Below, one piece after another: positions 1,338 to 49,214 of a stretch of 64,000 nucleotides of DNA; within the stretch, counting starts at the first letter, position 1, and each line of letters starts with the position of its first letter. The notes under the pieces are model-generated. The model had not been told where the DNA came from. It did no database searches and saw only the letters and a list, made by a program, of their open reading frames with translations. The stretch comes from Gemmatimonadaceae bacterium (GTDB taxonomy: Bacteria; Gemmatimonadota; Gemmatimonadetes; Gemmatimonadales; Gemmatimonadaceae): the NCBI GenBank assembly GCA_025934775.1, contig JAICWO010000001.1:248001-312000 (forward strand), given 5' to 3'. Both the position numbers and the translations under genes were made by a program.

Positions 1338-3176
1338 ATGGCCGCTCCCGTCGCATCCTCCGAACGCATCGGCGATCTCCTCTTTCGTGAGGGGCTGATC
1401 AGCGCCGAGCAGCTTGCCCAGGCGCTGCAGGAGCAGAAGCAGAACGGCACGCGGGTCGGGTACAACCTGATCAAGCTCGGCTTCATCAGCGAGATCGAGC
1501 TGACGAAGATGCTCGCCCGCCAGCACAAGATGCCGGCGGTGAACCTCGCGGGCTTCGACGTCGATCCCAAGATCGCGAAGATGATCCCGGCGGACCTGGC
1601 GCAGAAGAATCTCGTCATTCCGCTCAAGCGCGACGGCCGGGAGCTGATCGTCGCGATGGCCGATCCGACGAACCTCGGGATCCTCGAGGATCTCAAGTTC
1701 ATCACGCGCTACGACATCAAGCCGGTGATCGCCGGCGAGTACACGCTGCGCGGGATGATCGAGAAGTACTACGGCGCCACGGACGAGCAGCAGATGGCGT
1801 CGCTGATGGACACGATCACTGAGCTCGAGGCGGACATCGGCGGCGACGTCGAGGTGGTCGAGGAGAAGGAGGAGGACGTCTCGCAGGCGGCGCTCCAGGC
1901 GCAGATGGAAGACGCGCCGGTCGTCAAGCTGATCAACGCCATCCTCACCGACGCGGTGAAGCGCGGCGCGTCGGACATTCACTTCGAGTGCTTCGAGCAC
2001 GAGATCCGCGTGCGCTACCGCATCGACGGCGCGCTGATGGAAGTGATGAAGCCGCCGATGAAGCTCAAGGCGGCGCTGATCTCGCGGTTCAAGATCATGT
2101 CGCAGCTCAACATCGCCGAGCGCCGCGTGCCGCAGGACGGGCGCATCAAGCTGAAGATCGGCACCAAGGTGATCGACTTCCGCGTGTCGACGCTGCCGAC
2201 GATCTTCGGCGAGAAGATCGTGCTCCGCATTCTCGACAAGGGCAACCTGACGTTCGACCTCGCGAAGTTCGGCATCGAGCCGCGGGCCGAGCACGATCTG
2301 ATGGAGGCGGTGTCGAACCCGTACGGCATGGTGCTCGTGACCGGCCCCACGGGCTCCGGCAAGACGACGACGCTCTATTCGGCGCTATCCAAAGTCAATA
2401 ATATAGATGTCAATATCATGACCGCTGAAGATCCCGTGGAGTACAATCTCTTCGGGATCAATCAGGTGCTGGTGCGCAACGAGGTCGGCATGACGTTCGC
2501 CGCGGCGCTCAAGGCGTTCCTGCGGCAGGATCCGAACATCATCATGGTCGGCGAGGTTCGCGATCTCGAGACCGGCGGCATCGCGATCAAGGCGGCGCTC
2601 ACCGGCCACATGGTGCTCTCGACGCTGCACACCAACTCGGCGCCGGAAACGGTGACGCGTTTGCTGGACATGGGGCTCGAGCCGTTCAACGTCGCGTCGG
2701 CGCTCAACCTGATTCTCGCGCAGCGGCTCGTGCGCCGCATCTGCAGCAACTGCAAGGTGCAGTATCAGATCTCAAAAGAGGAGCTCGACGCCGCCAAGGT
2801 GACCCTCGACACGTCGATGCGCGATCTCCGGTTCACGGAAGAAGCGCTGCGCAACGCCAAGGCCAAGGCGACGAAGGAAGCGGCGCCGTTCCTCGAGACG
2901 TTGAGTCTCGACACGCAGGTCAAGGAGCTCGGCTTCTTCAAGGGCAAGGGCTGCGAGCAGTGCGGCGGCACGGGCATGAAGGGCCGGCAGGGCGTGTACG
3001 AGGTGATGGTGATGACGCCCAAGATGCGGAAGCTCGTGATGCAGAACGTGGGCGCGGCGGAGATCAAGGACGGCGCGATCGAAGAAGGGATGCTGACGCT
3101 GCGGATGGACGCGTGGCTCAAGGTGATGAAGGGGATCACGACGACGGAGCAGATGATCCGGGAGACGAGCGTGTAG
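1338..3176 (+). CDS. pilB: Type IV pilus assembly ATPase PilB (GspE family)
   Basis: Cytoplasmic hexameric ATPase that powers pilus extension (type IVa pilus machine). The 612-residue length is typical. The N-terminal MshEN-like region (about residues 5-150) begins IGDLLFREGLISAEQLAQAL. The GspE ATPase core follows with Walker A GPTGSGKTTT (from residue 336), an Asp box, Walker B (IIMVGEVRD) and the His box LTGHMVLSTLHTN. A C-terminal zinc-binding motif is formed by the pairs CSNC (RRICSNC) and CEQC (GCEQCGGTG), as in PilB and GspE. Partner genes pilT and pilC lie 10 kb downstream, separated by unrelated genes, so the pilus cluster is broken up here. No strong Shine-Dalgarno precedes the ATG, but homology begins immediately. 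Confidence 0.95.
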   Translation: MAAPVASSERIGDLLFREGLISAEQLAQALQEQKQNGTRVGYNLIKLGFISEIELTKMLARQHKMPAVNLAGFDVDPKIAKMIPADLAQKNLVIPLKRDGRELIVAMADPTNLGILEDLKFITRYDIKPVIAGEYTLRGMIEKYYGATDEQQMASLMDTITELEADIGGDVEVVEEKEEDVSQAALQAQMEDAPVVKLINAILTDAVKRGASDIHFECFEHEIRVRYRIDGALMEVMKPPMKLKAALISRFKIMSQLNIAERRVPQDGRIKLKIGTKVIDFRVSTLPTIFGEKIVLRILDKGNLTFDLAKFGIEPRAEHDLMEAVSNPYGMVLVTGPTGSGKTTTLYSALSKVNNIDVNIMTAEDPVEYNLFGINQVLVRNEVGMTFAAALKAFLRQDPNIIMVGEVRDLETGGIAIKAALTGHMVLSTLHTNSAPETVTRLLDMGLEPFNVASALNLILAQRLVRRICSNCKVQYQISKEELDAAKVTLDTSMRDLRFTEEALRNAKAKATKEAAPFLETLSLDTQVKELGFFKGKGCEQCGGTGMKGRQGVYEVMVMTPKMRKLVMQNVGAAEIKDGAIEEGMLTLRMDAWLKVMKGITTTEQMIRETSV

Positions 3177-46114: not shown

Positions 46115-46160
46115 TGATCGGAGCGAACGTCTCACGAAGCCTGCTCAGCGGGAGGTGCTG

Positions 46161-46673
46161 ATGCGACGGAATGGTGTGCTCATTGGTGTGATACTGAGCA
46201 TTGGCGCGCAGGTGAGCTGCGCGCACGGGGCGTCCATGACCGCATCCAGCACCCCCGCTCCCTCGCGCTCGGAGTCGATGGGCGCGAGCATGTCGACCGA
46301 CACGCTCGGCCCGCTCCGTCAGCGCGCCGTCGCCGCGGTGCTCCAACGGATCGCCGGACGTGAGAACGCGCCGGCGGACAGCGTCTTTCAGAACGTGCGC
46401 GTACTGCGCGGCCTGTCCGCGCGCCAGTTGCTGAACGTCATGAACGATGGCTTCGGCCACGGACTCGGCGTGAGCTGCGGGTTCTGTCACGTACCTGGCC
46501 AGTTCGCGAGCGACCAGAAGCCGAACAAGAACACCGCGCGCGACATGCTGCGCATGGTGAGCACGATCAACGCCGATCTCCGCACGATGCCGAATCTTCC
46601 CGATTCGAACGCGCGCGTGGGCTGCATCACCTGCCACCGGATGGCGCCCAAGCCGATGCTGATCGGCCGCTAG
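46161..46673 (+). CDS. Diheme c-type cytochrome lipoprotein (reaction-centre cytochrome subunit-like)
   Basis: A 170-residue exported protein starting at ATG with GGGAGG 5 nt upstream. The signal peptide ends QVSCAH, a lipobox. Two heme-binding motifs are present, CGFCH and CITCH. The surrounding sequence (VLRGLSARQLLNVMNDGFG, then VGCITCHRM) resembles the photosynthetic reaction-centre cytochrome c family, members of which occur in many non-phototrophs. It probably acts in periplasmic electron transfer. Its stop overlaps the stop of the convergent dinB-like gene by 4 bp. Confidence 0.85.
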   Translation: MRRNGVLIGVILSIGAQVSCAHGASMTASSTPAPSRSESMGASMSTDTLGPLRQRAVAAVLQRIAGRENAPADSVFQNVRVLRGLSARQLLNVMNDGFGHGLGVSCGFCHVPGQFASDQKPNKNTARDMLRMVSTINADLRTMPNLPDSNARVGCITCHRMAPKPMLIGR

Positions 46674-47284
46674 CGTCTGCTCGCCGGAGGCACGATGCCG
46701 TTCATGCGCAGGTATTCCACCATCTGCCCGTAATGATCGTACGTATGGACCATCGCCTCGGTGATCAGCGCGATGCGCGTCGCCGTGCCGCCCTGAAACG
46801 GCGAGATCGGCGATGAGCGTACGGGAATACGTGTATTCCCAATCGCGTCGATCGCGCGGTCGAGCGCGTCGAACGAGCCGTCGAGATACGCGATCCACTG
46901 CCGCTTCGTGACGATCGTGTCCGGTCCCGCTTCGTCGCCGGCGTCGGCTGGGGGGTTCTGCCCGAGCGCGGCGGCGGCGAGAATGTAGTTGGTCGCCGCC
47001 AGGTGGCCGATCTCCCGGCTGAACGTGCGGACGTTCGCGAACTCGCCGGCGGCCGGCGCGAAGCCGTACTTGTCGGCGGGCATGGCCTCCGCGGCGGAGA
47101 CCACGTTCTTCCGGAGCGCGCCCTTGATCATGAGGTGAAAGTTCGCGCGTTCCTGCGCGAACGCGGTGTCGGCGCCCGACGAGCCGGCTTGGTCGTGGCC
47201 GCGGCTGACGCGCTGCGCGAATACGTTCGGCACCGGCAGCGCGCACGCGAGGCATGCGAGCGCCTCGATCATTCTGAGATACAT
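46670..47284 (-). CDS. Exported DinB-family protein
   Basis: A 204-residue protein of the DinB/YfiT four-helix superfamily, unusual in having a signal peptide (residues 1-24, VFAQ). The metal-binding histidine triad is visible: His in REIGHLAATN and His-x3-His in MVHTYDHYGQM. Cytoplasmic relatives include DNA-damage-induced proteins and thiol-dependent S-transferases (bacillithiol, mycothiol). Its promoter has a MerR-type 19-bp spacer (47313-47343) overlapping the merR stop codon, so MerR should control it. GGAG lies about 8 nt upstream of the start. Confidence 0.85.
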   Translation of the reverse strand: MYLRMIEALACLACALPVPNVFAQRVSRGHDQAGSSGADTAFAQERANFHLMIKGALRKNVVSAAEAMPADKYGFAPAAGEFANVRTFSREIGHLAATNYILAAAALGQNPPADAGDEAGPDTIVTKRQWIAYLDGSFDALDRAIDAIGNTRIPVRSSPISPFQGGTATRIALITEAMVHTYDHYGQMVEYLRMNGIVPPASRR

Positions 47285-47291
47285 ACGAGAG

Positions 47292-47311
47292 CTCCGTGAA
47301 GGTTCACGGAG
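47292..47311. promoter_or_regulatory. Palindrome at the dinB transcription start
   Basis: CTCCGTGAA-gg-TTCACGGAG, 9-bp perfect arms. The predicted +1 is near 47306, inside the palindrome. A full RNA hairpin therefore cannot form, and a DNA operator is more likely. The left arm supplies the dinB ribosome-binding site. Confidence 0.5.
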
Positions 47312-47312
47312 G

Positions 47313-47343
47313 AGCGTACCACTTCAAGCGTGCTCGAAGTCAA
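47313..47343 (-). promoter_or_regulatory. MerR-type promoter/operator of dinB
   Basis: On the minus strand, -35 TTGACT (47343-47338), a 19-bp spacer, and -10 TACGCT (47318-47313). The spacer is filled by the dyad ACTTCAAGC-gt-GCTCGAAGT (47321-47340, one mismatch). The elongated spacer is the hallmark of MerR-family activation. It has the same spacing and dyad offset as the promoter at 48126-48156. The -35 overlaps the merR stop codon. Confidence 0.75.
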
Positions 47344-47768
47344 GACGTCGTTCGCGGCGGCGCGTTGTCGAGCATCGCGGCCGTCCGGCGACGGACGCAC
47401 TGGCCGAGCGTCTCACACTGACACCGGAGCAGCCGCGCGAGCAGCTCGCGCATCTCCTCGGCGCGCGCGATGCGCTCCTCGATCTCCTCGAGCTTGCGCT
47501 TCGCGAGCGCCTGCCAGCGCGCCGACGCCGGCGTGGCGCGGTCGAATCCGTTGAGGAGCGTCTTGATCTCGCGCATGGTGAAGCCCGCGTCGTGCGCGAG
47601 TTGGATCAGCGCGAGCGACTCGAACACGGAGCGATCGTACATGCGGCGGCCGCTCACGCGGCGCGGCGGGTGCAGCAAGCCGGCGTCCTCGTAGTACCGA
47701 ATCGCCGACGTGTTGATGCGCGCGATCCGCGCCACTTCGCCAATCGGAAGGCCGCTCGCGTGGTCCAT
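47340..47768 (-). CDS. MerR-family regulator with C-x-C-x5-C sensor motif
   Basis: A 142-residue regulator. N-terminal winged helix: LPIGEVARIARINTSAIRYYEDAGLL and SGRRMYDRSVFESLALIQLAHDAGFTMREIKTLL. A dimerisation coiled coil spans about residues 82-112. The C-terminal sensor has C116, C118 and C124 (RCQCETLGQC). SoxR carries C-x2-C-x-C-x5-C for its [2Fe-2S] cluster; here the last three cysteines are conserved and the first position is Leu. The operator core TCAAGT-N2-ACTTGA equals the SoxR half-sites. It may sense redox, a thiol or a metal ion. GGAG lies 4 nt upstream of the start. Confidence 0.92.
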   Translation of the reverse strand: MDHASGLPIGEVARIARINTSAIRYYEDAGLLHPPRRVSGRRMYDRSVFESLALIQLAHDAGFTMREIKTLLNGFDRATPASARWQALAKRKLEEIEERIARAEEMRELLARLLRCQCETLGQCVRRRTAAMLDNAPPRTTS

Positions 47769-47789
47769 CGCTCCACCTCGAAGGAATGA

Positions 47790-48119
47790 TCAGTCGTGAT
47801 CGATGCCGAGGTAGAGTATGCGCAAATCGTCCAGGTCGCGAGCGTCGGCGGTCACCTCGAGGACGAGCGGCGCTCGCGCCACATCGACGACGCGGTACTG
47901 GAATCGCGCGCAGCACCGGCGTTCAACGCGTACGAACGCGTGCACGACGAACCGATTCGCGATCGTGCGCGGGAGCTCGAGCCGGACGCCGCGGTCCGTG
48001 GCGCCGCGCGACGTGGCACGGCTCAAGAGGGAGCGGAAGCGCCGGATGCCGAGCGAGCGGCCGCCCGCCGGCAGCGTGCAGACGCGGCCGACCGCGTCGA
48101 GCAGAGGAAGTTCTTTCAT
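47790..48119 (-). CDS. Small protein co-transcribed with merR, CC motif
   Basis: A 109-residue protein, first gene of the merR operon (21-bp gap to merR). A vicinal cysteine pair sits at residues 69-70 (VERRCCARFQYRVV), followed by APLVLEVTAD. This arrangement faintly recalls small ECC-x-F proteins found beside MerR regulators, not enough to name a family. The predicted transcription start coincides with the A of its ATG, making it a leaderless message. The N-terminal half is basic. Function unknown; metal or thiol sensing with MerR is a guess. Confidence 0.6.
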   Translation of the reverse strand: MKELPLLDAVGRVCTLPAGGRSLGIRRFRSLLSRATSRGATDRGVRLELPRTIANRFVVHAFVRVERRCCARFQYRVVDVARAPLVLEVTADARDLDDLRILYLGIDHD

Positions 48120-48125
48120 GCGCGA

Positions 48126-48156
48126 ACGCTAGCACTTCAAGTGTACTTGAAGTCAA
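48126..48156 (-). promoter_or_regulatory. MerR-type promoter/operator of the merR operon
   Basis: On the minus strand, -35 TTGACT (48156-48151), 19-bp spacer, -10 TAGCGT (48131-48126). The spacer carries a perfect dyad ACTTCAAGT-gt-ACTTGAAGT (48134-48153). Six bases separate the -10 from the ATG at 48119, so +1 is the A of the start codon. The last base of the dyad is the last base of the upstream lipoprotein's stop. Confidence 0.8.
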
Positions 48157-49214
48157 GGCACCCCGGCGACGGTCTTCGGCCGCAACGCCGCGAGATCGGG
48201 CATGAAGACGAGCAGCCCGTCGTCCGCTGTGGTCCGATGATAGCCGGCCACGAGCTGCGCCTGGTACTGCCGGATGTCGAAATCGAAGCGATCGCTTGGC
48301 GCGAGATCGATCACTTGCATGTCGGCGTGAACCATGAACAGCTTGCCGAACTGCAGCGTGCCGCCGCGAAAGAGCATGTAATTCGGCGCCGCGGTGTCCG
48401 GCTGGAGCGCGGCGAGCGTGCCGGGCTTCGCGCCGCCGAAGTACTGCACGAGCGTGTCGGGCGCGAGCCGCACCGCGACGAGCCGTCCCGAGATCGCCGG
48501 CGGCGGCATCAGGTTCGTCGGATCGATCAAAAGATCGTTGCCCTCGACGCGGACGCCCCGCGCTTTGCGCAGATCGAGGAGCTTGGCGAGCGTGACGCCA
48601 AGTGCATCCATGAGCCCCTTGCCCGGGATGGAGCAGATCTTCATCGCGATCGGATGGACGCGAAGCTCACCGCGGTCGGTGACGCTCACCTCGCCAGTCA
48701 TCTCGAACGGAATGTCGACGACCTTGTGCAGCACGCCGCGCTGAATGAGATGCCCGTTCTCGACCTGAAAGCTGAGCGCGCGGAGCGGCGCGCCCGGGTA
48801 CGCGAAGACGTACGTGTTCATCAAGCGCGAGAGATCGGCCGTCGGGAAGCCGACCGTGCCGGTGTCGATGTCCAGGACGAAGGAGCGCGGGTCGTCGAAC
48901 GACACCACGCCGTCGCCGCGCCGGCTGCGCATACGGCCGCGCAACTGATCGAGGTCGAGCGCAACCCCGGGCCACATGTGAAAGCGCACGTGCTGGAAGC
49001 GCGCGTTCACGATCGTGTCGCCGCTCTCGGCGCGCGCGACCGCGGAGGTGACGGGATATCCCGCGCCGGGTTGAGGCTCGATCAGCGTCACCGTTGGCGC
49101 GGCGCGGCAGGAGCCGGCGAAGATCCCGAACAATCCAAGCGCAAGGGCGCGCCAGCGCGCGGCCGGTCGGCCATCAGTGTTTCGTTCGCGTCCCTCCCGA
49201 CCCGTCACCACCAC
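48153..49214 (-). CDS. Hypothetical lipoprotein
   Basis: A 353-residue exported protein. The N-terminus has a positively charged stretch, a hydrophobic helix and a lipobox (GIFAGSC). The body is beta-rich with repeated VRFHMWPGVALDLDQLRGRM and KLLDLRKARGVRVEGNDLLID-type strands, reminiscent of lipid-binding AsmA-like or BPI-like proteins, though no family can be assigned. Start is one of three consecutive GTG codons (49214, 49211, 49208). Its stop abuts the merR-operon operator. Function unknown. Confidence 0.6.
   Translation of the reverse strand: MVVTGREGRERNTDGRPAARWRALALGLFGIFAGSCRAAPTVTLIEPQPGAGYPVTSAVARAESGDTIVNARFQHVRFHMWPGVALDLDQLRGRMRSRRGDGVVSFDDPRSFVLDIDTGTVGFPTADLSRLMNTYVFAYPGAPLRALSFQVENGHLIQRGVLHKVVDIPFEMTGEVSVTDRGELRVHPIAMKICSIPGKGLMDALGVTLAKLLDLRKARGVRVEGNDLLIDPTNLMPPPAISGRLVAVRLAPDTLVQYFGGAKPGTLAALQPDTAAPNYMLFRGGTLQFGKLFMVHADMQVIDLAPSDRFDFDIRQYQAQLVAGYHRTTADDGLLVFMPDLAALRPKTVAGVP

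Follow-up and report, generated by a model that had tools for sequence, protein, structure and literature searches.

In this part of a Gemmatimonadaceae genome, a small MerR-family regulator with three cysteines is accompanied by two near-identical promoters, each with an operator-like dyad in a 19-bp spacer, one ahead of its own operon (p109-merR) and the other ahead of dinB, and the same arrangement of dyad and spacing recurs at each of the 18 loci that represent this merR clade in the phylum. We consider it quite probable that the regulator, by way of its CxCx5C motif, activates both promoters by distorting their DNA in response to a soft-metal(loid) or thiol inducer, the outputs being the small protein p109 and an exported DinB protein. 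We found no paper in the open-licence literature describing a circuit of MerR plus DinB.

The two promoters lie on the minus strand of the window, by which we mean the whole 64,000-nucleotide stretch analysed, and share the layout TTGACT-N19-TA(G/C)(C/G)(G/C)T, with a ACTTCAAGTNNACTTGAAGT-type dyad that starts in both cases at the fourth base of the -35 hexamer (Table 1). An earlier note, made from the DNA letters alone, had described just such a pair, and both were confirmed; it had also placed the dinB -35 on the merR stop codon, which is correct, having missed that the -35 of p109-merR coincides in the same way with the end of a gene, namely the stop codon of the 353-aa gene upstream. As each -35 contains the TGA of the preceding gene, both promoters of the circuit begin on a stop codon. 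Just 6 nt separate the -10 from the ATG of p109 (48119-48131, minus strand), so that a near-leaderless p109-merR transcript is predicted, and the spacing is the same for the p109 gene of a relative (G003). The dinB leader is predicted to start with a hairpin of 8 bp that spans its GGAG ribosome-binding site; the first leader bases pair in a similar way with the Shine–Dalgarno sequence in G004:C26 (7 bp), in G153 (5 bp) and at the p109 gene of G386, and some translational control of dinB through this pairing is possible. On the far side of dinB, a plus-strand gene for a PF02276 protein converges on it, with a 4-bp overlap at the dinB end.

Table 1. Features of the p109-merR and dinB locus in window coordinates; the last line refers to a contig of a relative
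Feature	Position	Strand	Description
PF02276 gene	46155-46673	+	Photosynthetic reaction-centre cytochrome c subunit family; small, apparently exported, CxxCH motifs
dinB	46670-47284	-	204-aa DinB_2 (STL superfamily) protein; apparent signal peptide; H94/H180/H184
Leader hairpin	47292-47311	-	CTCCGTGA-ACCT-TCACGGAG, at predicted start of dinB leader
Promoter/operator 2	47313-47343	-	TTGACT-N19-TACGCT, ahead of dinB
Promoter 2, -35	47343-47338	-	TTGACT
Promoter 2, spacer		-	19 bp, TCGAGCACGCTTGAAGTGG
Promoter 2, -10	47318-47313	-	TACGCT
Operator dyad 2	47321-47340		ACTTCGAGC-AC-GCTTGAAGT; one mismatched pair
merR	47340-47768	-	142-aa MerR-family regulator; CxCx5C (C116, C118, C124)
p109	47790-48119	-	109 aa, unnamed family with homologues; invariant Cys14 and E66-R67-x-C69-C70
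Promoter/operator 1	48126-48156	-	TTGACT-N19-TAGCGT, ahead of p109-merR
Promoter 1, -35	48156-48151	-	TTGACT; contains TGA of 353-aa gene
Promoter 1, spacer		-	19 bp, TCAAGTACACTTGAAGTGC
Promoter 1, -10	48131-48126	-	TAGCGT
Operator dyad 1	48153-48134		ACTTCAAGTACACTTGAAGT; arms ACTTCAAGT-AC-ACTTGAAGT, perfect 9 bp (9/9 pairs)
353-aa gene	48153-49214	-	No known family; upstream of p109
Unlinked dinB-like gene (L156, G021:C20)	1501-1964		Seemingly decayed gene for an exported DinB; retains a 19-bp-spaced operator-promoter; distant from merR

How exceptional are these sites? In the whole host assembly (G000, 4.88 Mb, 99% complete), the pattern TTGNNNTCNAGNNNNCTTGAANNNNTANNNT has two perfect matches, which are the two window promoters, and the next-best sites have three mismatches, a level also reached by the reversed control. 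The dyad alone, at one mismatch or fewer, occurs at one further place in the genome. A dyad site (L002) was rejected as a third member of the regulon, since it falls where a coding region ends and has no reported -35/19/-10 match.

The earlier note had staked its claim on conservation of the dyads in orthologous loci, and here the result is clear. A profile built from eight MerR homologues (alignment A3) delimits a clade of 18 loci scoring above 150 bits in the phylum, all others scoring 117 bits or less. The search at each locus was for a dyad together with TTG and TANNNT separated by 15 to 23 bp; 16 of the 18 had the complete element at 19 bp and none had it at any other spacing. In the remaining two, TTGACT with its dyad is followed at 19 bp by CAGCGT or CATGCT. 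A dyad inside the promoter spacer, for which MerR-family activators use 19-20 bp, is present at both window promoters and at every clade locus. Shuffling (200 dinucleotide shuffles) gave a mean of 0.01 loci when dyads were judged by symmetry and none when judged by consensus, and the reversed sequences gave none (versus 18). The window's two-promoter layout, before merR and before dinB, is repeated in G153, again with the dinB -35 on the merR stop codon, and G004:C26 is similar as regards dinB. A scan of eight further genomes with the DNA pattern alone returned 12 sites, with no matches in the control, and 10 of these adjoin merR genes of the clade. Another, on a separate contig of G021, lies 46 bp ahead of the start codon for an exported-DinB-like protein, so that a search using DNA only leads back to the same protein family. 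A site in G004 (L157) was dismissed as a coding coincidence, lying antisense within another DinB coding sequence and having a poor -10.

The genes behind the clade promoter (assigned at all clade loci except the second G319 locus) are more varied than the window alone would have suggested. The p109 family is the commonest target, present at 8 of the 18 loci (G000, G003, G021, G060, G114, G166, G319 and G386); DinB, whose role as a target is local, accounts for six (G000, G005, G153 and three loci in G004); and thioredoxin is a third target, at G019, G020 and G141, and as the second gene at G114. At G258 the downstream gene, judged by eye, is SRPBCC-like. That four relatives have thioredoxin as a target would agree equally well with a response to thiol or redox stress. 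The earlier idea of autoregulation plus dinB as one target keeps the support of the anatomy, and of the finding that this is the only clade MerR in its genome, but a single target was too narrow a view, p109 being the commonest; in the same way, the circuit deserves to be called self-contained in the host genome, but not in relatives that have exchanged the target for thioredoxin or an SRPBCC-like gene.

The dinB product scores 42.4 bits against PF12867 (cut-off 24.8), and so has a DinB_2 domain. Its histidine triad (H, HxxxH; H94, H180 and H184) is invariant in five members and is found also in the G153 protein, and an apparent signal peptide, read by eye from the N-termini, suggests export. 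Across 395 genomes of the phylum, the subgroup scoring above 230 bits comprises six proteins, all encoded next to a clade merR, in the orders merR>dinB, dinB>merR or divergently, and always with the promoter directly before dinB; at distant DinB paralogues lacking linkage to merR, the element was found at 0 of 17 loci. What remains of the unlinked G021 gene is an N-terminus resembling a signal peptide plus the first half of a window-type DinB; as the second half is gone, it looks decayed. A scan of viral contigs with the window DinB found nothing, the PDB held no sequence relatives of the subgroup, and a single-sequence structure model (pLDDT 44) was too poor for use.

The regulator itself has the MerR-family helix-turn-helix and the long DNA-binding/dimerization helix (PF13411, 65.4 bits; PF09278, 51.9 bits; both above cut-off). 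C116, C118 and C124 are its only cysteines, and they are invariant across the clade. Profile alignments match C116 and C124 to C112 and C120 of CueR, and the three together to C122, C124 and C130 of SoxR, leaving the first SoxR cysteine with no counterpart. No named NCBIfam equivalog cut-off is reached: the scores are 63 for MerR (cut-off 150.85), 77.7 for CueR (147.4) and 69.2 for SoxR (116.9). A MerR scan of the named genomes brought up distant relatives alone, chiefly of other MerR subfamilies. Three thiolates would suit As(III), Sb(III) or Hg(II), and are no proof of a ligand, which is not fixed by the cysteine count.

The other product of the presumably autoregulated operon, p109, can be regarded as a real protein because homologues occur at seven further clade loci. 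Invariant in their alignment (A4, and in its numbering) are C19, P25, G53, V70, E73, R74, C76 and C77. No Pfam or NCBIfam model scored above its cut-off for any p109 member tried, and p109 had no sequence relatives in the PDB. A moderate structural model (pLDDT 73.7, core 24-105) gave best neighbours at Z 7.1 (the C-terminal domain of ArgR) and Foldseek E 0.19, none of them trustworthy, the Z 7 match to ArgR standing at background level. Plasmids from other phyla carry the family beside arsenic or mercury genes, or as a fusion to MerR. In Cupriavidus, Cytobacillus, Peribacillus, Adhaeribacter, Halorussus and Halomarina, p109 genes occur alongside arsenic-resistance genes, SBF permeases, merB or merA, and the neighbours of the family at large are merB, arsC/arsD, arsN, ACR3/SBF permeases and merA. 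Three Bacillota loci encode a CxCx5C MerR and have a 19-bp dyad promoter ahead of MerT-like and p109 genes, or ahead of p109. Three actinobacterial MerR proteins (L089, L091 and L038) carry p109 as a C-terminal domain, and on two plasmids, of Streptomyces and Rhodococcus, such fusions are followed by genes for a MerT-like membrane protein and an SBF-type permease. The association of p109 with ars and mer genes, the MerR fusions and the Bacillota CxCx5C loci are what chiefly leads us to propose that the inducer is a soft metal(loid), the window locus itself having no ars or mer genes.

Might the regulator instead be a redox sensor of the SoxR type, in which the three cysteines and some other ligand hold an Fe-S cluster, and which answers to redox-cycling compounds and not to metal(loid)s? 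The alignment of CxCx5C with three of the four cluster cysteines would accord with this, as would the invariant R84-W85 near the SoxR tryptophan position and the thioredoxin target in relatives. Moreover, genuine four-cysteine SoxR proteins of other Gemmatimonadota (L107-L117) have TTGACTTCAAGTTNACTTGAACTTG-type promoters, always with 19 bp; as this operator is nearly that of the clade MerR, the operator sequence alone cannot name its regulator, and crosstalk between the two is conceivable in genomes with both. However, these SoxR proteins retain CIGCGCLSLxxC, whereas the first cluster cysteine is absent from 18 of 18 clade members and from the three Bacillota relatives, leaving CxCx5C in place of CxxCxCx5C; the NCBIfam SoxR score falls below its cut-off; and the p109 partner keeps company with ars and mer genes in other phyla. 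On balance we regard a SoxR-like sensor as unlikely.

It is also rather doubtful that DinB is a passenger, captured through a copy of the operator and standing outside a response whose real business is p109 (or thioredoxin). The distribution could be read in that way, as p109 is found at more of the clade loci than DinB (eight against six) and DinB at high similarity is confined to two genera, but the pairing has been kept through three gene orders, in the G004 paralogues and in the unlinked G021 copy, each with its own promoter. That some different regulator binds the dyads, or that they serve the upstream genes as terminators, seems very improbable indeed. Each dyad does begin on the preceding gene's stop codon, but throughout the clade a constant 19-bp spacing to the -10 is kept, even in divergent intergenic positions, and the stems are A+T-rich and lack a U-run, all of which speaks against this reading; nor does the genome encode any other MerR of the clade.

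Returning to the reading that we prefer, in which a clade MerR controls both promoters, how might the circuit operate? Ordinary promoter recognition calls for a spacer shorter than 19 bp. In the mer system, shortening the spacer makes the promoter constitutive, and MerR with mercury effectively achieves such shortening by distortion (PMC11049809). Applying the same logic to both window promoters, we propose that dinB is co-induced with an autoregulated p109-merR operon. The three-cysteine MerR would bind the two near-identical operators, that of promoter 1 governing its own operon and that of promoter 2 governing dinB, and would lock both in an inactive geometry until an inducer arrives; it would then kink the spacer and untwist it, making the -35 and -10 usable by RNA polymerase. 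The likely inducer would be a thiol-reactive agent captured by the three cysteines, either thiol stress or a soft metal(loid), for instance As(III), Sb(III), Hg(II), organomercury or Cu(I), and the output would be cytoplasmic p109, with its Cys-Cys pair, together with an exported DinB/STL protein having a three-histidine metal site.

More tentatively, the CxCx5C MerRs of Gemmatimonadota and Bacillota may conceivably form a separate class of soft metal(loid)/organometal sensors, with p109 as a new metal(loid)-binding or organometal-handling partner that Actinobacteria have fused to MerR, and with exported DinB as a periplasmic arm of detoxification. The mechanism envisaged is a textbook one, and it is the parts that are new: an exported STL/DinB protein under putative MerR control, and an unnamed family (invariant C ... 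ERxCC) that accompanies arsenic and mercury resistance genes in both bacteria and archaea. The conserved promoter offers a ready reporter with which to search for the inducer, and a first handle on the p109 and DinB families.

Among known systems, mer of Tn501 and Tn21 resembles the present circuit in its dyad-filled 19-bp spacer and control of its own operon, and MerR proper resembles the window protein in its helix-turn-helix and long dimerization helix. The window MerR differs in lacking the Cys at the start of that helix (the third Hg ligand of MerR proper), and its apparent targets are p109 and dinB, not merTPA. CueR comes close in its cysteine pair, C116-x7-C124 corresponding to the Cu(I)-binding C112-x7-C120, and it too has no Cys at the helix start, but the window protein has the additional invariant C118 and scores below the CueR cut-off, and there are no copper genes at the locus. 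With SoxR the likeness lies in the CTTCAAGTNNACTTGAAG-type operator and in three of the four cluster cysteines, and the differences in the fourth cysteine, missing clade-wide, and in the targets. As to the apparently exported product, some members of the DinB/STL superfamily are thiol transferases that depend on a metal and have a three-histidine site (BstA-H); these share the DinB_2 domain and the metal triad with the window DinB (PMC5815605); the latter is set apart by its apparent signal peptide and by its proposed MerR-type control.
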